Below are positions 36,788 to 47,267 of a stretch of 64,000 nucleotides of DNA, piece by piece; position 1 is the stretch's first letter, and the number at the start of each line of letters is the position of its first letter. This DNA is from Mariprofundus ferrinatatus (GTDB taxonomy: Bacteria; Pseudomonadota; Zetaproteobacteria; Mariprofundales; Mariprofundaceae): assembly GCF_002795825.1 (NCBI RefSeq), contig NZ_CP018800.1, positions 1,488,001 to 1,552,000 on the forward strand, read 5' to 3'. The notes below the pieces were generated by a model, which made no database searches, was not told the origin of the DNA, and was given only the letters and a program-made list of their open reading frames with translations. Both the position numbers and the translations under genes were made by a program.

Positions 36788-37435
36788 TTAAAGCGACAAC
36801 CACCCCATACCAACGCTGATGCCGACAAAGGCCAGCACCGATGCACCGACTCTTGAAAGCTGCTGCTGACGTCCCCTTAGCTGCGAGCGGATTTCGCCGC
36901 CAGCCCTTCCCAATCCGTAGCCGAAGACAAGCTGTGGAACCACAATTGCACCCGCACCGAATGAGAGGCCCAATAGCAAACCGTATGCGCCTGAACCGGT
37001 AGCTGCGGCGGCAGCCATCACACCGGCAAGCGGTGCACAGGGACGCAACCCCATCGCAAAGCCGATGCCGAAGAGTCCAGCCCTGATCTGTTTCTTCTTG
37101 CGGGAAGAACAGCCAGCGACTCTCCCCTTACGCCATAAAAGCACGGCAGAGAAGAGCAGCATGGCAGCAAAGATCAGGTTGGCATGACTCATATCAAGCA
37201 GCCCGACCAGTGATGCGCCAACCAAACCTGATACTGTTGCCAGCAGTGCATAAGCGCCCATGCGGCCGGCATTAAAGCGCCACGTCTGCAGTGATGTCTC
37301 TTTTGCTCCAAGGTCCTGGGATAAGAGCATCACGCCCAGTGTCGGAATACAGGTGAACATACATGCACCGGCCCCGAATGAGAGGCCGATGATGAATGTT
37401 GCCAGCATGGATGAGAGAAGCACCTCCACCATCAA
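36788..37435 (-). CDS. TauE/UreH- or DsbD-like membrane transporter
   Basis: 215 aa with six hydrophobic segments in two pseudo-repeats. Each repeat has a conserved Cys-Pro element: GAGACMFTCIPTLGVML (Cys about 25 and 29) and GLRPCAPLAGVM (Cys about 137). This matches the membrane domains of the CcdA/DsbD and sulfite-exporter/UreH groups, which move electrons or metal ions. It overlaps the ferredoxin gene by ATGA and is the last gene of the TonB operon, so metal transport or delivery of reducing power for it is likely. The start region is MMVEVLL. Confidence 0.65.
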   Translation of the reverse strand: MMVEVLLSSMLATFIIGLSFGAGACMFTCIPTLGVMLLSQDLGAKETSLQTWRFNAGRMGAYALLATVSGLVGASLVGLLDMSHANLIFAAMLLFSAVLLWRKGRVAGCSSRKKKQIRAGLFGIGFAMGLRPCAPLAGVMAAAAATGSGAYGLLLGLSFGAGAIVVPQLVFGYGLGRAGGEIRSQLRGRQQQLSRVGASVLAFVGISVGMGWLSL

Positions 37436-38460
37436 TCCTTTTTGACTCGACGGGAAGGTTTCTGTTTACCCTCCCACTGCTTCTGTGCCCTGTTGCGCTC
37501 TTTGAAGTATTGTGGATCGGAGACCTTGATCGGAATCACCGCATACTTCATCGCCATGACCCCTTTATCAGGGCAAAACTCCACACAACGTCCGCACAGG
37601 GTGCAGTCGGGCATCAGGATATCCTTCTCTTTCGATGTGTGGATCTCGCGGATATCCATCGGGCAAGCCTTGGCACAGAGGCCGCACTTGTCACAGCGGG
37701 GCGTGTAGTTCTTCACAAGCCTGACCAGCCCGATCTTCTTGAAGATCGCGTGCATTGCCAGCATCGGACAGATGCGGCAGAAGGGCTGACGCATGGTGAG
37801 CGACAGCACCAGAATCAGACCAAAGAGCGTATCGGCAATAATCGAGAGGATCATGTAACCGGTTGACGAGGTATCAATATAGAGCTGATTGAGCTGCCCT
37901 GCCGCAAGCGAGGTGAGAATGCGGCTCGGACAGATTTTACAGAAGGGATCACCCAGTTCATGGCCGACAAAGCCGATTCCCGAAGCGAGCGGAAAGAGGA
38001 TTACCAAGAGCCCCAGCATCAGCCATTTGGCAGGCCGTATGCGATCCACGACTTTCTCATCCAGAGACTCTGTACGGTTCAGACGCAGCTTCTGTCCGAT
38101 CATACCGAGCACCTCCTGGAAGAAGCCGAGCGGACAGAGCCAGCCGCAGAATGCCTTGTTGAGCAGCACGAAGAGCAGCAGGAATGTCGCCAGCGTCGTC
38201 AGAACCGGAAGCAGCATGCTAAGGGCGAAGGTACCTGCACCGATAGCGCGCCCGACGCCGTGGCCGAGCTGATGCTGAAGCGGAATCAGTACGCAGTAAT
38301 CCGCTGTCTTCGCATCATAGGCACAGGCAAGCGCCGGGAATGCGCCGGAGATTTTATCCGCCGAGTAGAAGCCGACAAACACCGACCCATAAACCAGAAA
38401 CAGGAATGCCAGCAGCTGTACCACCTTGCGAATGACCGATAAATTTTTCCAGACAGGCAT
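37432..38460 (-). CDS. Membrane polyferredoxin (NapH/CcoG/FtrD-like)
   Basis: 342 aa. About five to six membrane helices carry Cys pairs CGWLCPLGFFQE, CKICPSRI and CRICPMLAMH. The C-terminal cytosolic part has two [4Fe-4S] motifs, CDKCGLCAKACPMDI and CTLCGRCVEFCPDKG. Relatives pass electrons from the cytosol or quinol across the membrane: NapH to periplasmic nitrate reductase, FtrD for iron uptake, CcoG in copper delivery to cbb3 oxidase. No nitrate reductase genes are nearby; context (TonB, receptor, metal-binding periplasmic proteins) points to reduction of a metal. Start shares a base with the preceding stop. Confidence 0.8.
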   Translation of the reverse strand: MPVWKNLSVIRKVVQLLAFLFLVYGSVFVGFYSADKISGAFPALACAYDAKTADYCVLIPLQHQLGHGVGRAIGAGTFALSMLLPVLTTLATFLLLFVLLNKAFCGWLCPLGFFQEVLGMIGQKLRLNRTESLDEKVVDRIRPAKWLMLGLLVILFPLASGIGFVGHELGDPFCKICPSRILTSLAAGQLNQLYIDTSSTGYMILSIIADTLFGLILVLSLTMRQPFCRICPMLAMHAIFKKIGLVRLVKNYTPRCDKCGLCAKACPMDIREIHTSKEKDILMPDCTLCGRCVEFCPDKGVMAMKYAVIPIKVSDPQYFKERNRAQKQWEGKQKPSRRVKKD

Positions 38461-39287
38461 TACTTTTTCTCCTTACGACGACGCTTCCTTAGCGTCATAA
38501 AGCCACCGAGCAACATACCGCCGCCAACCATAGCAAGACCAAGCTCTGTGGACTGCCAGTGCTGAGGATTGATGTGATAGTCATATGAGAAGGTCGTGAT
38601 AAATCTCTGGCCATCATCGCCATGCCTGGCTGTCAGTAAAAATTCAGCTGGTGGATTGGCAGCCCGCCCCGGTTTTTCATAGGTAAAATCCTGAGGCAAC
38701 GGAACAGTCACACGGCCTGTGGCATCGGCTGTGAATTCTGCGCTACTGCCATTGCCCGTTGTCATTGACATGCTGGCTCCGGCAAGCGGCTCACCCCTGT
38801 AGCGAATCACAAACACGGCATCCGTTCCGGAGTAGTAGCGCCAGTGTTCCCGTGCCAATGGCGCCGGTTCAATCTCCAGTGCCGATTTTTCGTGACCGAT
38901 CAAAAGCGATGGCGACACACCCGATGGTTTACCATTCATGTAGATATAACGAATGGCCGACTCATGCAGCTCACCCGCACTGCGTTTTGCTACCAATGCA
39001 TGATAATTGCCCGTACCCATCGCTTTCACGCTGACCCTGCCCTGCTCCGGCTGCAGTGCCTTAACAGCCAGATGAGGGCTCATCAGCTGAGTTTCTGCAC
39101 CTTCGCCACCATGCAGCAGGTATGTTTCACCTGCATGGCGACTGTTCCCGCCACCGTGGCCGCCGCCGTGACCGGCATGTCCATGACCCTTCACTGCTGG
39201 CGCAGGTACCCAGTGCATCGACGCCTCGGCGGTGAAGGAGAAAAGAGCCACGACAAGCGTGGCTCCCATCAATAATCTCGCTTTCAC
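38460..39287 (-). CDS. Periplasmic His-rich protein with Ig-like and C-terminal anchor
   Basis: 275 aa: signal peptide (about 1-22), a His/Gly-rich segment (KGHGHAGHGGGHGGGNSRHA at about 33-52), two beta-rich domains resembling DUF4198-type periplasmic metal-binding proteins (PLAGASMSMTTGNGSSAEFT), and a C-terminal transmembrane helix (MVGGGMLLGGFMTL) with a basic cytosolic tail. The His stretch could capture Cu or Ni. It overlaps both neighbours by one to four bases. Family assignment is tentative. Confidence 0.6.
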   Translation of the reverse strand: MKARLLMGATLVVALFSFTAEASMHWVPAPAVKGHGHAGHGGGHGGGNSRHAGETYLLHGGEGAETQLMSPHLAVKALQPEQGRVSVKAMGTGNYHALVAKRSAGELHESAIRYIYMNGKPSGVSPSLLIGHEKSALEIEPAPLAREHWRYYSGTDAVFVIRYRGEPLAGASMSMTTGNGSSAEFTADATGRVTVPLPQDFTYEKPGRAANPPAEFLLTARHGDDGQRFITTFSYDYHINPQHWQSTELGLAMVGGGMLLGGFMTLRKRRRKEKK

Positions 39288-39814
39288 TTTTTGCTGCCTT
39301 TCCAGCTCTTGCCGGAATAGAGCCCTGCTTTCTGCTCATCGGTAAGCAGGCGTGAAGCCTTCACCGATGCCATCAGGTTCGCTTCAAGTTTGGCTGCACG
39401 CAGCTCCCCCATACGCTTCGCGTACGCCTTGATATCGCGATCCTTCAGATCGCCGCTATGCAGCGTTGTACGGAACTCGGCAACCGTAATCTGTGCTTCC
39501 GCATGTGCTTTGGCTGCACCGGTCTCGGCTGCAACCAGAAGCTCTCCTACCTCTTTACGCTGTTTGTCGTTCAGGTTTCCATTCTTGAGAATCTTGCGCA
39601 CATAGTCCGGGCTGTTGCCCGGAATATTGTGGTGTCCCGACCTCTTATGATATCCGGAGGACTTTGCATCTCCCTTTGAACAGCTTGCTGCCTTTTCACC
39701 TTTAAAGCTGCAGTCCTCAGCAGAGCACTGCTTTCCACCACAGGCCATAGCCGTGCCGGAGAGCAGCAGAGCTGCCGAAGTTGCAATCATCAGATGTTGC
39801 AGTTGTTTTTTCAT
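39284..39814 (-). CDS. CpxP/Spy-like periplasmic protein with Cys-rich N-terminus
   Basis: 176 aa with a signal peptide (cleavage near SGTAMA at residue 24). A Cys/His-rich segment follows (CGGKQCSAEDCSFKGEKA, then CSKGD and HKRSGHHN) and then an all-helical body with LTDEQKAGL near the end, the LTxxQ element of the CpxP/Spy/ZraP group. Members bind metals or unfolded proteins and sense envelope stress. It lies 23 bases after the receptor. Confidence 0.65.
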   Translation of the reverse strand: MKKQLQHLMIATSAALLLSGTAMACGGKQCSAEDCSFKGEKAASCSKGDAKSSGYHKRSGHHNIPGNSPDYVRKILKNGNLNDKQRKEVGELLVAAETGAAKAHAEAQITVAEFRTTLHSGDLKDRDIKAYAKRMGELRAAKLEANLMASVKASRLLTDEQKAGLYSGKSWKGSKK

Positions 39815-39837
39815 ATCCTTCTCCCTCGTTCTATGGA

Positions 39838-42060
39838 TTAAAATGTTGCCGTAATACCGGCGTTCCAGCGGCGGCCCGGATTGACCACGATGGAGAGGTC
39901 CTCGGCGTTGTAGACGAAGTCGGCATTACTGTCGTAGTAGCCGCGTGCGGTGTTGTAGTAGGTGCGGTCAAAGGCGTTATCCACGCGTCCATAGAGCGAC
40001 CATTTCACCCGGTTGTTGCTGCCGGTGGCAAAGTCGTAGTTGGCAATCAGGTCGAAAATGGCATGCCCGCCGATCTTCTCCTGATTGATCTCGTCGGCGA
40101 AGTAGCTGCTCTGGGCGTTCATTTCGGTGGTGAGCGTAAAGCCTTCGAACGGCTTGATACGCGCCGCTAAAAACAGCTTATGTTTCGGCGCACGTGGAAC
40201 CACTTTGCCGCTGTTGTTGTAGTTGACGATGGCATTCGCTCCGGGCATCGGGCTGAAGCGGTTGCCCAGCAGCAGGTTGAAGTTGTCGTAGCGGGTGAAG
40301 TTGGCATCAAGAAGCGTGTAGGCCACATCCATGGAGAAGAACTGGCTCTGGTCGCTCTTCAGGGAGACTTCCATGCCGCGGTTACGCATGCCGCCGATAT
40401 TCTGGTACTGGTCCATCACACCGGTCGCCGGATTGGCATACTGACCCGCCACGTTGAGAATGAAATCCTTGCGATCAATCTGGAATGCCGCGATGTCCCA
40501 CTCGACATCACCTGCGCCGATGTCGACCTTGCCGCGCAGGCCGATCTCATAGTTAGTAGCCTGTTCAGGTGTCAGGTTCGGATTTGCAGCCACAGTGCCG
40601 GTCAGCGAAATGGTGCCGGCAAAAAGCTGCTGGATGGTCGGGGCACGGAAACCGGTCGATACATTGGTGTATAGTGATACCGAGTCGCTAATATCGTAGT
40701 TCAAGCCGCCACGCCAGGAGCCGACATTGAATTTCTTCTGCAGGAAGGGTGCAGCTGCAGCCGGCAGGTAATCCTCATAACTGAGTCGGATATGGTCGTA
40801 ACGGCCGTTTGCGGTCGCCGTCAATGCATCGGTTACACGGAATTTAAGCTCCCCGTATCCGGCATACATACGCTCTTTCGTCCTGTCGCTGGTAATCAGC
40901 GTTCCGGCAGTAACCACGCCGCCGAACGGACTCGGGCTGGTACGGTGATCGGCCAGAATGGTCACCCGGTTCTTGTAGCTGTTATCGCGAATGTCGACTC
41001 CGCCCATCCACCCGACACTTTCGCTGCTACCACGCCACTCGCCCTTGATGCCGCGCTGAATCTGCTTGTAGTCGTTATCGTTCTGGTAGGCATTCACATC
41101 GGTCACAGGCAGACGGTTCACATCATAGCGAATCGGAGCGGTCCAGAAGCGGGTGTGATCACCGAACTGGTAGAGGTTAACCATCAGGTTGCTGGTTTCG
41201 GAGATGTCATTGGCATAGGTCAGGTAGAACTTGCCGAGGTCGACATTGTAGTTACGGGCAAAATCGCGGCCATCGACACTGGTCGGATCGACTGCCGCCT
41301 GCGTCACACCTGTGACTGTTCCGTGGCTGTCCTTGAAACGCTTGGCCACCTCCCAGCCGAAGGTGAGGTCGCTGGAGTCGGATGTGTAAAACTGCAGTTT
41401 TCCGTTCAGGTAGTCGGCTTTATATTTTCCCTGGAAGTAATAACTGTCGGCATCGCGACGGCTGGCCTGCACATGGCCCGATGCCACATCCGTAGCAAAA
41501 CCGGCACGTGCCATGCCACGTTTATAACCGAAACTGCCAGCTTCAGCGGAAACGCTACCACCAGCCATTTTGGCGCCGCGTTTGGTGGTAATAATCACCG
41601 CTCCTGCCAGCGCATCGTCACCGAAGAGATAGGAGGCGCCACCCTTGATCACCTTGATCGATTCGATGTCGTCCATATTGATATTCACTCGTCCCGTACG
41701 CTCAAACACCGGTACGCCATCAATCACCACGGCCACACCCGGCTTCTCACCCATGAAACGCTGGTTCTCGACACCGCGGATATGAATCTTCAGCGAATCC
41801 TGACTCTGCAGCTCCGCCGTCACTCCCGGAATAGCATCAAGGATCTGCTTGATGTTCTCGGCATGCGCTTTTTCAACTTTGGCTCCGGAAATCACTGCGA
41901 CATTGGAGGGCTCTCCGCGCTTGGATTCAAAACGGTCATCGATCGTTGTCGAATCGACTCGCATCAGCCCCATATCTTCTGCTTCGGCCATCCATGGTGT
42001 CATCAGCATGGCCAGCAGCGATGCGGCCGCTGTCACATGCTTTTTCATTTTCAGGTTCAT
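39838..42060 (-). CDS. TonB-dependent outer-membrane receptor
   Basis: 740 aa. Signal peptide to about residue 27, a likely TonB box near DSTTIDD (36-42), plug domain (ENIKQILDAIPGVTAELQ, then IHIRGVENQRFMG and GGASYLFGDDALAGAVIITTKRG), and a 22-strand barrel ending NPGRRWNAGITATF with terminal Phe. The ligand cannot be read from the sequence; partners encoded downstream bind metals and can supply electrons, so a metal or metal complex is likely. The gene lies 39 bases behind tonB. Confidence 0.9.
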   Translation of the reverse strand: MNLKMKKHVTAAASLLAMLMTPWMAEAEDMGLMRVDSTTIDDRFESKRGEPSNVAVISGAKVEKAHAENIKQILDAIPGVTAELQSQDSLKIHIRGVENQRFMGEKPGVAVVIDGVPVFERTGRVNINMDDIESIKVIKGGASYLFGDDALAGAVIITTKRGAKMAGGSVSAEAGSFGYKRGMARAGFATDVASGHVQASRRDADSYYFQGKYKADYLNGKLQFYTSDSSDLTFGWEVAKRFKDSHGTVTGVTQAAVDPTSVDGRDFARNYNVDLGKFYLTYANDISETSNLMVNLYQFGDHTRFWTAPIRYDVNRLPVTDVNAYQNDNDYKQIQRGIKGEWRGSSESVGWMGGVDIRDNSYKNRVTILADHRTSPSPFGGVVTAGTLITSDRTKERMYAGYGELKFRVTDALTATANGRYDHIRLSYEDYLPAAAAPFLQKKFNVGSWRGGLNYDISDSVSLYTNVSTGFRAPTIQQLFAGTISLTGTVAANPNLTPEQATNYEIGLRGKVDIGAGDVEWDIAAFQIDRKDFILNVAGQYANPATGVMDQYQNIGGMRNRGMEVSLKSDQSQFFSMDVAYTLLDANFTRYDNFNLLLGNRFSPMPGANAIVNYNNSGKVVPRAPKHKLFLAARIKPFEGFTLTTEMNAQSSYFADEINQEKIGGHAIFDLIANYDFATGSNNRVKWSLYGRVDNAFDRTYYNTARGYYDSNADFVYNAEDLSIVVNPGRRWNAGITATF

Positions 42061-42099
42061 CGTACCACCTTCCTCTTAAGTATTAATAAAATCGTTTTA

Positions 42100-42777
42100 T
42101 CAGGTCGCATCCAGCCTGAAGCGCATACGAAACTCGCACTCCAGCGGGCAGTGAACATTTGATGGTGGTTTCGGTAACGGAACAGCCCTCTCCACTGCCT
42201 CTTTGGCCGCCGACAGCAGCAGCAAAGGGCCGTTATCAACCATCAGCTGGCGTGCTGATCCATCCGGAAAAAGGACAAAGCGAACATTCACCTCGCCTTC
42301 TATTCCCCGACGTCGTGCCGCTTTCGGATACCACTTGTGCTCCTCAATACGTGCCATTACATCAGCCAGATAGCGCTCCTTTTCCAGCTGGATAACCCCT
42401 TCATTAATCTGGGGAGCAGCTTGACTTGCTTCCGCTACCGCCTGTTGGAGCACTGCCGTTTCAGGCTGTGCTTCCTGTTTCGCCTCCTGCGGCTTCACCT
42501 TCGCTACCTTCTTCGCTTCAGGACGTTTTACCTTTTCGATCTTTTTCGCTTCCACCCTCTCAGGCTTCTCCTGAATCCGCTCCGGCACCGGGGCAGGCTC
42601 GGGAGCATGGGTCAGAAAACTCAGGCGTGTTACAGATGGATTGATCGGATCCGGTGCGGGAGCAGAGGTTACGCCGCCAAAGCCGATAAAGAGCAGCCCG
42701 TGCAGCAGCAGGGAGAGTGTAACTGCCGCTGAGCGCAGTCCGATCTGCCGTATGCCTCTCCCCTCCCCGGACATCAT
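42100..42777 (-). CDS. tonB: TonB energy-transducing protein
   Basis: 225 aa: one N-terminal transmembrane anchor (AAVTLSLLLHGLLFIGFGG, about 17-36), a Pro/Lys/Glu-rich spacer to span the periplasm (repeated EAKKVAKVKPQEAK), and the C-terminal TonB domain (YLADVMARIEEHKWYPKAARRRGIEGEVNVRF is its start). It is directly fused in order to exbD by an adjacent stop and start. Confidence 0.92.
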   Translation of the reverse strand: MMSGEGRGIRQIGLRSAAVTLSLLLHGLLFIGFGGVTSAPAPDPINPSVTRLSFLTHAPEPAPVPERIQEKPERVEAKKIEKVKRPEAKKVAKVKPQEAKQEAQPETAVLQQAVAEASQAAPQINEGVIQLEKERYLADVMARIEEHKWYPKAARRRGIEGEVNVRFVLFPDGSARQLMVDNGPLLLLSAAKEAVERAVPLPKPPSNVHCPLECEFRMRFRLDAT

Positions 42778-43185
42778 CTACCCCTTGGGTTTCTCGGTAA
42801 CGATATCGACGCCAGTGGCACCGGCCTGACGCGCAGCATCGATCACGCGCACCGAATCGCCCAGCGTCACACCGCTATCACCGCGGATCACCACCCGCTT
42901 GTCACTGCGACCAGCCAGCACATCGGCCAGTTGCCCGGCAAGCATTTCATAAGAGATCACCTTGCCATCAATGCGCAGTGCGCCGGAACGTTCAATCACC
43001 ACTTCCAGCGGCTCCTTCTCGTCAAGTGCAGTGGCGCTCACCGCTTCGGGCAACTCAATCGGCAACCCCTCATCATTGATAAAGTGAGCGGTAAGCATGA
43101 AAAAGACGAGCAGCAGGAAAACGATATCGATCAGCGGTGTCAGATTCGGGGCCTGGCCACTCCTGCGTGTTCCCTCAAATTGCAT
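42778..43185 (-). CDS. exbD: Biopolymer transport protein ExbD
   Basis: 135 aa from the ATG at 43185. One transmembrane segment with the essential Asp (NLTPLIDIVFLLLVFFML; Asp about residue 21), then a periplasmic domain (VVIRGDSGVTLGDSVRVID). Overlaps the exbB end by 11 bases. Converts proton motive force for TonB. Confidence 0.94.
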   Translation of the reverse strand: MQFEGTRRSGQAPNLTPLIDIVFLLLVFFMLTAHFINDEGLPIELPEAVSATALDEKEPLEVVIERSGALRIDGKVISYEMLAGQLADVLAGRSDKRVVIRGDSGVTLGDSVRVIDAARQAGATGVDIVTEKPKG

Positions 43186-43804
43186 GGGCCAGAGAGTCCC
43201 CGTGTTTAATCTGATCGCTGACACTGTATTCCGGAGCATGTGGAAGCTGCTCAATCACCATGGATGCCACCCGCTGCATCGACTTGGCGCGTTTATCCAC
43301 CAGACCTTCGAGAAAGTGCAGCAGAAAAAGAATGGGGATCGCTACGGCGAGGCCTGCTCCGGTAGTCACCATCGCTTCCCAGATACCTCCGGCCAAAACC
43401 ATTGCATCCACCTTGCCGCCAGCGGCCTCGATCACCTGAAACGCTTTGATCATGCCGGTGATGGTGCCGAACAGCCCGAGTAACGGTGCGGTATTACCGA
43501 GCCATGCCAGCGTGCGCAGCCCTGTCTCCATACGAGCCAACTGCTCGGAACCAATACGCGAGGCCACCCTGGCGAGATCCTTTACACCCTGTTCAGCTGC
43601 CTCCTTCACACCAACAGCAATCGCAGTTTCAGGAGAAACGCGTTTTCCCTCTGCTGTGTAGAGGTTGTCGAGGCCACTGTTTACTTTAGGCAACAGCTGC
43701 AGATGTATAAGTCGTTCGACCACAATAGCGACTGCCACAACCGAGTAACCGAGCAACACCCACATTACCGGGCCGCCTTTGTCGATCAGCATACTTATAT
43801 CCAT
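43175..43804 (-). CDS. exbB: ExbB/MotA-family proton channel protein
   Basis: 209 aa with three transmembrane helices: N-terminal (VMWVLLGYSVVAVAIVVERLI) and the conserved C-terminal pair (LGNTAPLLGLFGTITGMIKAF, then AMVTTGAGLAVAIPILFLLHFL). With ExbD it forms the proton-driven motor. First gene of the TonB operon; AGGTAAAG ribosome site, a TATAAC -10 (43850-43855) and three RegA-like boxes lie upstream. Confidence 0.92.
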   Translation of the reverse strand: MDISMLIDKGGPVMWVLLGYSVVAVAIVVERLIHLQLLPKVNSGLDNLYTAEGKRVSPETAIAVGVKEAAEQGVKDLARVASRIGSEQLARMETGLRTLAWLGNTAPLLGLFGTITGMIKAFQVIEAAGGKVDAMVLAGGIWEAMVTTGAGLAVAIPILFLLHFLEGLVDKRAKSMQRVASMVIEQLPHAPEYSVSDQIKHGDSLAHAI

Positions 43805-43865: not shown

Positions 43866-43910
43866 TAGGCAAAATGTCGCGCGGCATTTTGCCGCATGGC
43901 AATTTGTCGC
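43866..43910. promoter_or_regulatory. Three tandem RegA/RegR-like boxes upstream of exbB
   Basis: Three 15-bp units directly abutting: 43866-43880, 43881-43895 (GCGGCATTTTGCCGC) and 43896-43910. The published RegR box, as I recall it, is GNGRCRTTNNGNCGC. The middle unit matches fully, the third has two mismatches and the first three. They lie 10 bases upstream of the likely -10 of exbB and between it and the divergent small gene at 44036. Confidence 0.7.
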
Positions 43911-44035
43911 ATGCTTTCCGGATCGCATGCGTTTGGGCCTCCTGAATCAGGCTTCATTGACGCATCGATCTATATCAGAATGGAGCTGAACATTTCTCTG
44001 GAACAGCACGGGATTTTTTCCTATGTTACCGACCT

Positions 44036-44263
44036 ATGTTAGACATGGATGTCACAAAACTAGATATTCCGATTCATTTTCATTCGGACCCGAACTGCCT
44101 CTATAAAGTTGATGGCATCTGCTGTCATGGTGCAAACCCTGTCAGAAGACACGAGTGCAGAACCTATTGTCCTGTCACATCAGTCAGGTGGGTAGATGAT
44201 CATTTCGGCCACCTGAGTAACAATGAAAAAGAGAACATGATCAGGGCAATTGCCAATTTCTGA
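44036..44263 (+). CDS. Small cysteine-rich protein of unknown function
   Basis: 75 aa with five Cys (21, 29, 30, 41, 45) and several His, suggesting a metal site: NCLYKVDGICCHG and HECRTYCP. No signal peptide or membrane segment. The conserved-looking Cys spacing argues for a real gene, but no good ribosome site is visible. It is divergent from exbB across the RegA boxes and convergent with regA, so a link to metal handling is plausible. Confidence 0.5.
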   Translation: MLDMDVTKLDIPIHFHSDPNCLYKVDGICCHGANPVRRHECRTYCPVTSVRWVDDHFGHLSNNEKENMIRAIANF

Positions 44264-44301: not shown

Positions 44302-44847
44302 TTATGTTTTGGAAGGTCGCTTGGCCAGTTTTCGCTGCAGGGTACGCCTGTGCATACCAAGCCTTCTGGCAGTTTCTGAAATATTGCCGTCGCACTCCAT
44401 CAGCACCTTCTGGATATGTTCCCACTCCAGCCGTCTGGTCGACATCGGCTGCTCGGCAACTTCGGCAGCGGCATCGCCACTCTTTTTCTGTAGTGCCGCA
44501 ACCACCTCATCAGCATCTGCAGGCTTAGCCAGATAGTGCGTGGCGCCAAGCTTGATCGCCTCCACTGCCGTAGCAATTGAGGCATAACCGGTAAGCACAA
44601 CAATGCGGGTGTGTTCATCCAGCTGATGAAGCCTCTCGACCAGCACCAGACCGGAATCACCAGGCATACTCAGATCCACCACGGCATATTCCGGTGCTGC
44701 ATCACCCACCAGTTCAATAGCATCAGCAACATTGTTCGCCACCTGAACGGCAAACCCGCGTTTCTCCAGCGCAGATGAGAGGATGCGGCAGAACAGCGCA
44801 TCATCATCGACCAGCAGCAGATTCGGCAGATCTCTGTTTGACTCCAT
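44302..44847 (-). CDS. regA: Redox response regulator, RegA/PrrA/ActR family
   Basis: 181 aa. Receiver domain with acidic pocket LLVDDDALF and phospho-acceptor Asp58 in AVVDLSMPGDSG, Lys in YLAKPADADEV. The Fis-type C-terminal helix-turn-helix GNISETARRLGMHRRTLQRK is almost identical to that of RegA/PrrA. In purple bacteria this regulator controls photosynthesis, CO2 fixation and respiration in response to oxygen and quinone redox state. Encoded three bases after regB. Boxes matching its known target occur at four loci within 3.4 kb. Confidence 0.93.
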   Translation of the reverse strand: MESNRDLPNLLLVDDDALFCRILSSALEKRGFAVQVANNVADAIELVGDAAPEYAVVDLSMPGDSGLVLVERLHQLDEHTRIVVLTGYASIATAVEAIKLGATHYLAKPADADEVVAALQKKSGDAAAEVAEQPMSTRRLEWEHIQKVLMECDGNISETARRLGMHRRTLQRKLAKRPSKT

Positions 44848-44850
44848 CAG

Positions 44851-46164
44851 CTACTCCGTTTTCAACTTCTGCAGTGGCAGACGAATGTTAACAAGGGCAC
44901 CACCATCGGGATGGTTACTGATATTCATCTCACCGCCAAGCCTTCGCACCACCTCACTGGCCAGATAAAAGCCAAGCCCGTGCCCATCTTTTTTGGTGGT
45001 GTAAAATGGTTTCCCTAGTGCATCCAATGCAGCCGCAGTAAGCCCTTCGCCAAAATCCCGTATCTCCAGTCTGAGTTCCGCAACAGACCACATGGCGTTC
45101 AGTTCAATCTGTTCCGGCGAGGCATCGGCAGCATTGTTCAGCACATTGATTACAGCCTGATTCAGGGTCTCGTCGACAACAATACTCGGAACCGGCTCAT
45201 CTCCCTCCAACGAAACATGTATTGATGTCGAGGGATGCAACTCCTGCCAGCGCGAAATACAGTGATTCAAACAGCTTCTGACATCTTCACTATGTCCGCT
45301 CTCGGCTTTCATCTGCCCTGCACTGGCACTAATCTGACCCAAGGTCGCCTTACAGCGGTCTACCTGTGAGCGAAGGATTTCAATTTTCTCCACCAATTCT
45401 GGCTGGCCCTTGTACTCCTGCTCCATCTCTTTGGTCAGCACGGCCATGGTTGCCAGCGGAGTACCGAGTTCATGTGCAGCTCCCGCAGCCAGCGTACCAA
45501 GTGAAACCATATGCTCATCGCGCAGGTTTTTCTCGCGTGCTTCAGCCAGTTTCTGGTCTCGCTGGCGCAGTGCTTCAGCCATTGAGACTACAAAAAAGAG
45601 GATCAATCCGACAGCCAGCAGAAAGCTGAACCACATACCCAACACATGCAGGCTAAAGTCGCCTGCTGGGGCTGCATGGCCAGCATGAGTGCCATGCGAT
45701 GCATGTCCGTGAACCGCCATCTCCTGTGTTAATGGCACATTGATCAGCATGAGGAACGTGTAACAGCCAAGTGTTACTGAAGCCATCGCCCAGACGTAGC
45801 GCTTGGGAAGCGTCGCCGCCACAATAACCAGTGGCAGCAAGAACAGGGATACAAAAGGATTGCTTGAGCCGCCAGCAAAATAGAGCAGAGCAGCAAGCGC
45901 AATAACATCAACCACCAGATGCAGAAAGAATTCATTTGCCGATGCCGAAGGTCTATTTTGGATTCGAAGCCAAAGTATCACATTTGACACGGCATATACT
46001 GCGATGACTGCAAGCATAGGAAGCAGAGGCAGCTCCACCGCAAGCAGATAGACGGCAAGACCGGTAGCGGCCAGTTCACTTGCAATCACAGCACTTCTGA
46101 AGACGAAAAGACGTTTCAGGTTATAGGCACCTGCCACATCCCGAAGCGCGTTATCAACAAACAT
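44851..46164 (-). CDS. regB: Redox sensor histidine kinase, RegB/PrrB family
   Basis: 437 aa with six membrane helices (about 20-195). Loop 98-104 is GGSSNPF, the quinone-sensing motif of RegB. Phospho-acceptor His231 lies in GAAHELGTPLATM; Cys271 (VDRCKATLG) is 40 residues later, the same spacing as His225/Cys265, the redox Cys of Rhodobacter capsulatus RegB. The C-terminal ATPase has NNAADAS, FGEGL and GHGLGFYLASEVVRR. Unusual feature: the loop before the last helix is His-rich (VHGHASHGTHAGHAA, residues 151-165). Confidence 0.92.
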   Translation of the reverse strand: MFVDNALRDVAGAYNLKRLFVFRSAVIASELAATGLAVYLLAVELPLLPMLAVIAVYAVSNVILWLRIQNRPSASANEFFLHLVVDVIALAALLYFAGGSSNPFVSLFLLPLVIVAATLPKRYVWAMASVTLGCYTFLMLINVPLTQEMAVHGHASHGTHAGHAAPAGDFSLHVLGMWFSFLLAVGLILFFVVSMAEALRQRDQKLAEAREKNLRDEHMVSLGTLAAGAAHELGTPLATMAVLTKEMEQEYKGQPELVEKIEILRSQVDRCKATLGQISASAGQMKAESGHSEDVRSCLNHCISRWQELHPSTSIHVSLEGDEPVPSIVVDETLNQAVINVLNNAADASPEQIELNAMWSVAELRLEIRDFGEGLTAAALDALGKPFYTTKKDGHGLGFYLASEVVRRLGGEMNISNHPDGGALVNIRLPLQKLKTE

Positions 46165-46252
46165 CCGAACCCTTCATTGCTTGCAAACTACCATGCCGAC
46201 AGCCTCTCTGAAAATAAGCTGGCAGGCTACATAAGAGAGAGCGCCAGCAGAT

Positions 46253-46267
46253 GTGACAAATTGTCGC
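46253..46267. promoter_or_regulatory. RegA-like box upstream of regB
   Basis: GTGACAAATTGTCGC, a near-palindrome; two mismatches to the published RegR consensus. It lies 89 bases before the regB start, the same distance as the csp1 box from csp1, and about 19 bases upstream of a possible -10 (TTATGT). Confidence 0.6.
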
Positions 46268-46410
46268 ATTCCCATCAACAGCCTGTCCCACATGATACGC
46301 ATGTGCCGGAGGGGCATGGTCGTTGTCTCATCCCCGGGATAGTCCTGCTGCTCCGGCACAACCTTCCATTTTCAGCGCATAGAATCATTTACAATTACAC
46401 TTCAAACAGC

Positions 46411-46635: not shown

Positions 46636-47142
46636 CTACGCCTTCAGGTAGCTCTTGCACTCCTTGATACAATCAGCACAGGCATCGGCGCACGCCTTGC
46701 AGGTCGAATGTTTCTTCTCGTGCTTGCGACACTCCTTCTCACAGGCACCGCACATCTTGATGGAGAGTTCGCACAACTCCTTCATATATGCTGAGTCCAT
46801 CGTCACCAGCTTGGCGTGGGCTGCACAGAAAGCGCCGGTTTCCAGCACGATCCTGGCGCAGTCGGCCATGGCGGTATCGCCCGCCTTGAACTCGATCAGG
46901 CAGTGGTGAATGCAGTCATCCCCGGTGCGCATACAGTTGTGTAGCGCTTCGATCATCTTTGCATTCTTGGCGCCGGTGGCATGGCCGTGGTGCATCGAAT
47001 GGTCATCGGCGGCAAACGCCTCACCGATGCCGGCCAGTGCCGCACTCGATGCCAGTGCACCCAGCCCCAGTGCACCGGCCCCTTTCAGCATCGTACGACG
47101 CTCTATATCCAGATGTTCCGTCTGATCTCTATCCATACTCAT
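46636..47142 (-). CDS. csp1: Tat-exported four-helix copper-storage protein (Csp1-like)
   Basis: 168 aa. Twin-arginine signal (ERRTMLKGAGALGLGALAS, predicted cleavage after GEAFA), then a His segment (HSMHHGH) and a helical bundle with 14 Cys, many as CxxxC on one helix face (HNCMRTGDDCIHHC, CGACEKECRKH, CKACADACADCIKECK). This is the pattern of Csp proteins that store many Cu(I) ions in a four-helix core. The start is taken as the ATG at 47142; one at 47136 is equally possible given the GGAGG position. Monocistronic with a full RegA box upstream and its own terminator. Confidence 0.88.
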   Translation of the reverse strand: MSMDRDQTEHLDIERRTMLKGAGALGLGALASSAALAGIGEAFAADDHSMHHGHATGAKNAKMIEALHNCMRTGDDCIHHCLIEFKAGDTAMADCARIVLETGAFCAAHAKLVTMDSAYMKELCELSIKMCGACEKECRKHEKKHSTCKACADACADCIKECKSYLKA

Positions 47143-47231
47143 ACACCTCCGTGATGTTAATTGCGAATTCCTTATCCGTTCCCCGGGATGTGTTTCATTA
47201 AGGATAAGCTTAGCAGGAACAATCAGAGGGC

Positions 47232-47246
47232 GCGACATTTTGTCGC
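47232..47246. promoter_or_regulatory. RegA box upstream of csp1
   Basis: GCGACATTTTGTCGC, a complete match to the RegR consensus as I recall it and an almost perfect palindrome, 90 bases upstream of the csp1 start and about 20 from a weak -10 (TAAGCT). Confidence 0.7.
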
Positions 47247-47267
47247 ACCCCTGAATATGGGCAGTAA

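Follow-up and report, generated by a model that had tools for sequence, protein, structure and literature searches.

A candidate TonB-energised copper-acquisition operon with an inner-membrane redox step in Mariprofundus ferrinatatus

Eight packed genes at one locus

The window analysed here, a 64,000-nucleotide stretch of the 2.30 Mb complete genome of Mariprofundus ferrinatatus, carries a block of eight packed minus-strand genes at positions 36788 to 43804. A sequence-only reading of the locus had described them as an exbB-exbD-tonB set followed by a receptor, two periplasmic proteins, a membrane polyferredoxin and a permease, and all eight frames are intact at these coordinates. The nearest named relatives of the host are Mariprofundus species and other Zetaproteobacteria. 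The genes are listed below in the direction of transcription; the last five are referred to by single letters.

43175-43804, minus strand: exbB, channel of the TonB energizer (PF01618, 2.7e-26)
42778-43185, minus strand: exbD, with a conserved start methionine (PF02472, 3.6e-29)
42100-42777, minus strand: tonB (TonB_C, PF03544, 1.5e-10)
39838-42060, minus strand: R, TonB-dependent receptor for entry through the outer membrane (barrel PF00593, 2.8e-52; plug PF07715, 5.9e-19)
39284-39814, minus strand: S, Cys/His-rich Spy/CpxP-like periplasmic protein (PF07813, 9.1e-5; 23.6 bits, cut-off 24.3)
38460-39287, minus strand: H, His-rich periplasmic protein with a C-terminal membrane anchor and a DUF4198 fold assigned through structure (PF10670, 4e-5; 24.3 bits, cut-off 34)
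37432-38460, minus strand: N, NapH-like membrane polyferredoxin (PF12801, 3.2e-11, plus a C-terminal 2[4Fe-4S] Fer4 domain)
36788-37435, minus strand: D, DsbD_2 membrane protein (PF13386, 3.6e-17; 63.4 bits, cut-off 24.9)

Taking the conserved ATG at 43185 as the exbD start gives an 11-base overlap of exbB with exbD; the longest exbD reading frame begins further upstream, at a TTG at 43254. No bases separate exbD from tonB, gaps of 39 and 23 bases precede R and S, and the remaining genes overlap by 4 (S and H), 1 (H and N) and 4 bases (N and D). An Rfam scan of the window gave no riboswitch at gathering scores.

The H-N-D core recurs with TonB receptors

The eight-gene order recurs elsewhere in Mariprofundales, where regA-regB genes stand directly 5' of the cluster in several genomes; H was found in 15 of 61 sampled genomes. 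More distant relatives were sought with an alignment of N in a collection holding one genome per species. This gave 246 confirmed relatives, from which 80 foreign loci were retained, many of them cut short. Their hosts are mostly sulfur-oxidising and marine Gammaproteobacteria (among them Thiodiazotropha, Sedimenticola, Neptuniibacter, Amphritea, Methylophaga and Methylomonas), plus one Sulfurimonas; cultured marine hosts include Neptuniibacter marinus, Amphritea atlantica and Sedimenticola selenatireducens. We found no earlier description of the gene set within the open-access literature searched.

When all neighbours were clustered, only R, H, N, D, ExbB, ExbD and TonB recurred in more than 10 loci. 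For 39 foreign loci at least 5 kb was available on both sides of N; H and D are present in all 39 of these well-covered loci, a TonB receptor lies nearby in 35 and ExbBD-TonB in 33. Across the 80 loci, truncated ones included, a receptor is found near N in 70 and exbB in 57. The S gene was found in Zetaproteobacteria only (8 of 80 loci) and is a lineage-specific accessory outside the H-N-D core.

The sequence-only reading had named two observations that would speak against it. One was the last four genes occurring elsewhere without TonB genes in an unrelated setting. Six of the 39 well-covered loci have no ExbBD-TonB nearby; in five of them a TonB-dependent receptor is still encoded less than 6 kb away, and the remaining one (L066) bears the same regulatory boxes as the operon. 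The other, pairing with a siderophore or vitamin pathway, does not recur among the neighbours of the 80 loci.

Two neighbourhoods are described here in their own right. On a plasmid of Sulfurovum mangrovi (L031), one protein combines a polyferredoxin with an H-like DUF4198 domain; its gene is accompanied by a receptor, D and N, and this locus is also adjoined by genes for a 2-hydroxyacyl-CoA dehydratase and its activase. TlpA-like thioredoxins adjoin some clusters.

Regulatory boxes are shared with copper genes

Upstream of exbB lie further genes and sites that bear on the control of the operon.

43868-43911, no strand assigned: tandem RegA/RegR-type boxes upstream of exbB; the same boxes lie 5' of the cluster in relatives
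44302-44847, minus strand: regA, ActR/PrrA/RegA-type response regulator, the putative regulator (NF033791, 219 bits, below the cut-off of 250)
44851-46164, minus strand: regB, ActS/PrrB/RegB-type kinase with a GGSSNPF motif and a His-rich loop (NF033792, 241 bits, below the cut-off of 350)
46252-46268, no strand assigned: RegA-type box upstream of regB
46636-47238, minus strand: csp1, Tat-exported four-helix copper-storage protein, putatively of the same regulon (TIGR04401, 117.2 bits, cut-off 100; PDB 5fjd, 6.2e-15)
47231-47247, no strand assigned: RegA-type box at the 5' end of the csp1 reading frame, inside which the true csp1 start probably lies

A search for inverted repeats 5' of the cluster units returned GACA-3-TGTC, seen 7 times against 0.18 expected (P 1e-9), which in the window corresponds to the tandem boxes ahead of exbB. 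A related 15-mer, GCGACAATTTGTCGC, shares 14 of its 15 positions with GNGRCRTTNNGNCGC, the RegR box consensus quoted in PMC5506826. RegA-type boxes number 54 5' of all cluster units, compared with 0.3 expected from mononucleotide shuffles. Genome-wide, the strict pattern occurs 26 times in M. ferrinatatus and 3 times for the reversed control, with intergenic sites at the exbB promoter, 5' of regB, at csp1 and before the genes of an RND pump operon. Because the boxes match the RegR box and one of them stands 5' of regB itself, we infer that they are bound by RegA.

The motif GGSSNPF corresponds to the ubiquinone site of RegB. The His-rich loop of the kinase, HGHASHGTHAGH, lies near the membrane, is conserved in Mariprofundales and has a short version in Amphritea (loci L253, L019-L021 and L204 besides the window); this loop might sense metal.

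In this genome csp1 and regB are preceded by the same boxes as the operon, and in relatives the boxes reach further copper genes. Two Mariprofundus loci (L017 and L019) hold a second receptor, with boxes, between the regulator genes and exbB, and the best PDB match of the one in L017 is OprC (8.9e-23). At L022 a box separates the cluster from a divergent gene encoding a Cu-oxidase domain, together with cytochromes. Six Gammaproteobacterial genomes have boxes at this cluster and, in six of six, at copper receptors of TIGR01778, three of which are full length and score 554, 492 and 521 bits against a cut-off of 472. Boxes also stand at Sco-PCuAC operons (PF02630, PF04314) in L201 and L205, at ccoNOQP in L202 and at regBA in L204; one further match, inside the Neptunomonas cydB gene, was discarded because of its position at the 3' end. 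Moreover, csp1 and the cluster co-occur in 41 Mariprofundales genomes (Fisher P 0.004, uncorrected for kinship). The boxes common to OprC, Sco-PCuAC, ccoNOQP and csp1 genes would thus link the operon to copper and to respiratory oxidases, and because the operon and these copper genes have them in common, copper is the best-supported cargo and very probably the true one.

As to csp1 in other Mariprofundales (L162-L175), the gene mostly lies elsewhere, often beside PCuAC or TlpA-like genes, without a RegA box; in L167 and L171 it adjoins regB, with a RegA box. FNR-like sites matching at least 9 of 10 positions were seen in 10 upstream windows against 2.1 expected; loci with FNR-like sites are L057, L060, L072, L075, L078 and L091, and the observation concerns Sedimenticola-type hosts.

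Proteins of the core and the receptor

H models as a DUF4198 metal-binding fold (AlphaFold2, pLDDT 90.8). Its best structural match is Zcp (9mhj; Z 17.7, rmsd 2.6, 175 residues), a protein of this fold solved with Zn, Cu or Co, and the Ideonella Ni-DUF4198 protein, IsDUF4198 (9gcb), follows at Z 15.1. A sequence search of the PDB with H alone gave no matches, and one with an H profile gave only weak Ig-like matches. Residues H96 and H148 are ~100% conserved. H may therefore be a metal-capture protein, differing from Zcp and IsDUF4198 in its C-terminal membrane anchor and in that no N-terminal histidine was seen.

The nearest named family of N is NapH/MauN, at a score below the family threshold (TIGR02163, 66.4 bits, cut-off 213). 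The N family has the motif C46-x9-C56-x2-LIP-x-QHQ, with H63 and H67 (H63xxxH67); C46, C56, H63 and H67 are conserved at 99-100%, although Sulfurovum lacks H67. No such loop is seen in the FtrD (five), CcoG (thirteen) and YccM proteins compared, and in pairwise scores N is nearer to YccM than to CcoG or FtrD. By analogy with NapH topology the loop would be extracytoplasmic, and we lean slightly towards N being a cupric reductase.

D was called a TauE/DsbD-like permease in the sequence-only reading. The DsbD_2 assignment holds, and the TauE match is insignificant (0.35). D models as a CcdA-like fold (pLDDT 81.6), with the cysteines of the DsbD_2/CcdA family in its transmembrane segments; those conserved are C25xxxC29, C109 and C133. 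Foldseek gave CcdA as the best solved match (TM-score 0.58; Z 8.7 on re-alignment, which is modest for a helical protein), and sequence searches of the PDB with the single protein or a profile gave none. Homologues of D follow ccoI or ccoS in the cbb3 clusters of three genomes (G012, G398 and G400; HMM E 1e-13 to 1e-7). We give roughly equal chances to D acting as a Cu(I) permease and as a thiol electron donor.

For the receptor R, the best named subfamily is the siderophore receptors of TIGR01783 (181 bits, under the cut-off of 223.5), the TIGR01778 TonB-copper receptor family does not match it, and the nearest solved relatives by profile are YncD/PqqU (PQQ-type). Two receptor subfamilies accompany the same H-N-D core, one 35-84% identical to the R of the window (mostly at least 48%) and the other about 21-28%. 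Interchangeable receptors around a constant core suggest that carriers vary around one metal, and the cargo of R is probably chelated copper.

Oxidases of the host genome

Neither ccoN nor CcoG is found above cut-off in this genome or in one other (G011), though many relatives have them; the only CcoG trace here is a 21-bit match to TIGR02745 at another place. A dependence of the operon on a cbb3 oxidase was accordingly rejected. What the genome does encode is a CtaD/CoxA-type cytochrome c oxidase, in an operon with two Sco proteins. Some hosts hold both CcoG and the H-N-D cluster.

A model for copper acquisition

The gene set, its order and conservation, the folds, the conserved residues and the boxes common with copper genes are all supported by the tests made. 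Together they suggest that the operon is probably a TonB-energised copper-acquisition system with an inner-membrane redox step, under RegB/RegA redox two-component control. In such a system R, driven by its own ExbBD-TonB, would bring chelated Cu(II) into the periplasm, where H would bind the metal. N would pass electrons from the cytoplasm or the quinol pool via its Fe-S centres to the periplasmic Cys/His loop, which would reduce Cu(II) to Cu(I) and release copper from its chelator. D would then either carry Cu(I) inward or keep the loop cysteines reduced. The imported metal would be used as copper for respiratory oxidases.

Because RegB has the GGSSNPF motif and the His-rich loop, a reduced quinone pool could switch the operon on: copper starvation would stall the oxidase, the quinone pool would become over-reduced and RegBA would respond by turning on the operon. 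Copper storage would come under RegB/RegA as well, as would the genes for copper receptors and oxidases in relatives. RoxS/RoxR, a system of the RegBA type, controls terminal oxidases (PMC11742914).

Copper acquisition in Gram-negative bacteria is poorly characterised (PMC12914433), and this holds most of all for its inner-membrane step and for how aa3-type oxidases are supplied (PMC12617631). The gene set described here is widespread and conserved, has defined residues and a testable regulator, and could explain copper uptake and reduction in a bacterium without CcoG or a cbb3 oxidase.

Several points weigh against this interpretation. The metal, redox and transport roles are all drawn from sequence and models. 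The genome lacks a cbb3 oxidase, so the oxidase served would be the aa3-type enzyme. Elsewhere DUF4198 proteins have been tied to nickel, and the one from Ideonella favours Ni over Cu (PMC12537917). The closest solved relatives of R are of the PQQ type rather than OprC, and D, instead of moving metal, could serve as a thiol electron donor. As for regulation, the box counts were set against mononucleotide shuffles, and the genomes cannot be treated as independent; boxes were not seen 5' of the cluster in many hosts, including Sedimenticola and Thiodiazotropha; and with a regulator from a global redox family, co-regulation need not imply one metal.

Alternative explanations

The alternative that survives best, though unlikely, is that H-N-D forms an extracytoplasmic copper-handling and thiol-redox module, similar to the CcoG/H and DsbD_2 parts of cbb3 clusters, which feeds reduced copper to oxidase assembly, in which case copper may never cross the inner membrane. 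The presence of D homologues in ccoGHIS clusters, the modelled likeness of D to the thiol electron transporter CcdA, the TlpA-like thioredoxins beside some clusters and the cysteine pair in the N loop are consistent with such a module. Against it, the linkage to a TonB receptor in 70 of 80 loci, often with a dedicated TonB system, argues for acquisition, though acquisition into the periplasm only would satisfy this linkage as well. Furthermore, some hosts have CcoG in addition to the cluster, and the genome studied here has neither CcoG nor cbb3.

Uptake of nickel or cobalt through a DUF4198 nickel-binding protein is improbable. Genes for DUF4198 proteins stand next to those for TonB receptors and NikR, and one such protein has a Kd for nickel of 18 nM (PMC12537917); H has this fold. 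The nickel brace of IsDUF4198, however, requires an N-terminal histidine (PMC12537917). Visual inspection of 73 N-termini (72 relatives and the H of the window), made without a signal-peptide program, showed none where the signal is expected to be cleaved. Among the neighbours of the 80 loci no gene family for nickel recurs, and the boxes are those of copper genes.

Reductive iron import, with R taking ferric complexes and N reducing Fe(III) in the manner of FtrABCD, is very unlikely. Kinship marks the host as an iron oxidiser, N and FtrD belong to the same broad polyferredoxin superfamily, and the siderophore-receptor subfamily is the one that R resembles most. A membrane polyferredoxin beside periplasmic metal-binding proteins is indeed what the operon has in common with FtrABCD, and the sequence-only reading had drawn that parallel. 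Its general idea, TonB-coupled metal import combined with an inner-membrane redox function, agrees with the evidence; the parallel with FtrABCD and iron fails. N scores 191-460 bits against its own family and only about 22-29 bits against FtrD proteins encoded beside P19, which lack the N loop, and kinship with P19/FtrABCD was rejected on these grounds. P19 (PF10634), as the same reading had noted, is lacking, with no match in the genome and none among the eight genes; nor is Ftr1 among the eight genes in a Pfam scan, the whole genome not having been searched for it. Fur boxes are not enriched 5' of 97 cluster units, where the mean best match is 11.26 of 19 positions against 11.04 in shuffled sequence (consensus match only). 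The operon thus differs from FtrABCD in having no P19, only a distant relative of FtrD, coupling to TonB and a copper-type regulon.

Import of an organic cofactor or another small molecule instead of a metal is most improbable: both receptor subfamilies match 6v81 and 9c4o by profile at 1e-46 to 1e-51, but R scores 130 with the PqqU equivalog, whose cut-off is 1200, one inner-membrane core is served by two receptor subfamilies that are about 22-25% alike, as if carriers vary and the metal is constant, and H has a metal-binding fold.

Relation to described copper systems

The copper-acquisition reading finds its closest described counterpart in CrtA/CrpH of Bordetella, a system in which chelated copper enters through a TonB receptor and the PepSY_TM protein beside it is proposed as copper reductase (PMC12914433, PMC13038864). 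The two have in common a TonB receptor for chelated copper, a membrane partner proposed or predicted as reductase and a tie to heme-copper oxidases, and ExbBD-TonB is sometimes included. The partner in CrtA/CrpH is a heme-binding PepSY_TM protein, whereas here an Fe-S polyferredoxin, a DUF4198 protein and a DsbD_2 protein take its place; a Pfam scan gave no PepSY match among the eight genes. CrtA-type receptors are marked by E337, Q356, H358, R395, W265 and Y130. By analogy the operon would be a variant with different inner-membrane parts and not a member of the CrtA/CrpH group.

With the cupric reductase CcoG and the ccoGHIS cluster the operon has in common a polyferredoxin, an anchored periplasmic protein and a DsbD_2 protein. 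It differs in that N is shorter, nearer to YccM and has its own Cys/His loop, that the cluster includes a TonB receptor and that the genome lacks CcoG. The copper receptors OprC/NosA (TIGR01778) would in relatives belong to the same regulon, yet the receptor of the operon itself does not match that family.

Other features near the boxes

A 75-residue Cys/His-rich reading frame lies on the plus strand between regA and exbB (44036-44263). The box-preceded RND operon, which encodes an adaptor, a permease and an outer-membrane protein, was seen in L136 and L254 (region of G000:C1:155171, on the genome studied here); export of a copper chelator is one possibility for its function. Similar RND genes adjoin the copper cluster in the relatives L020 and L018.

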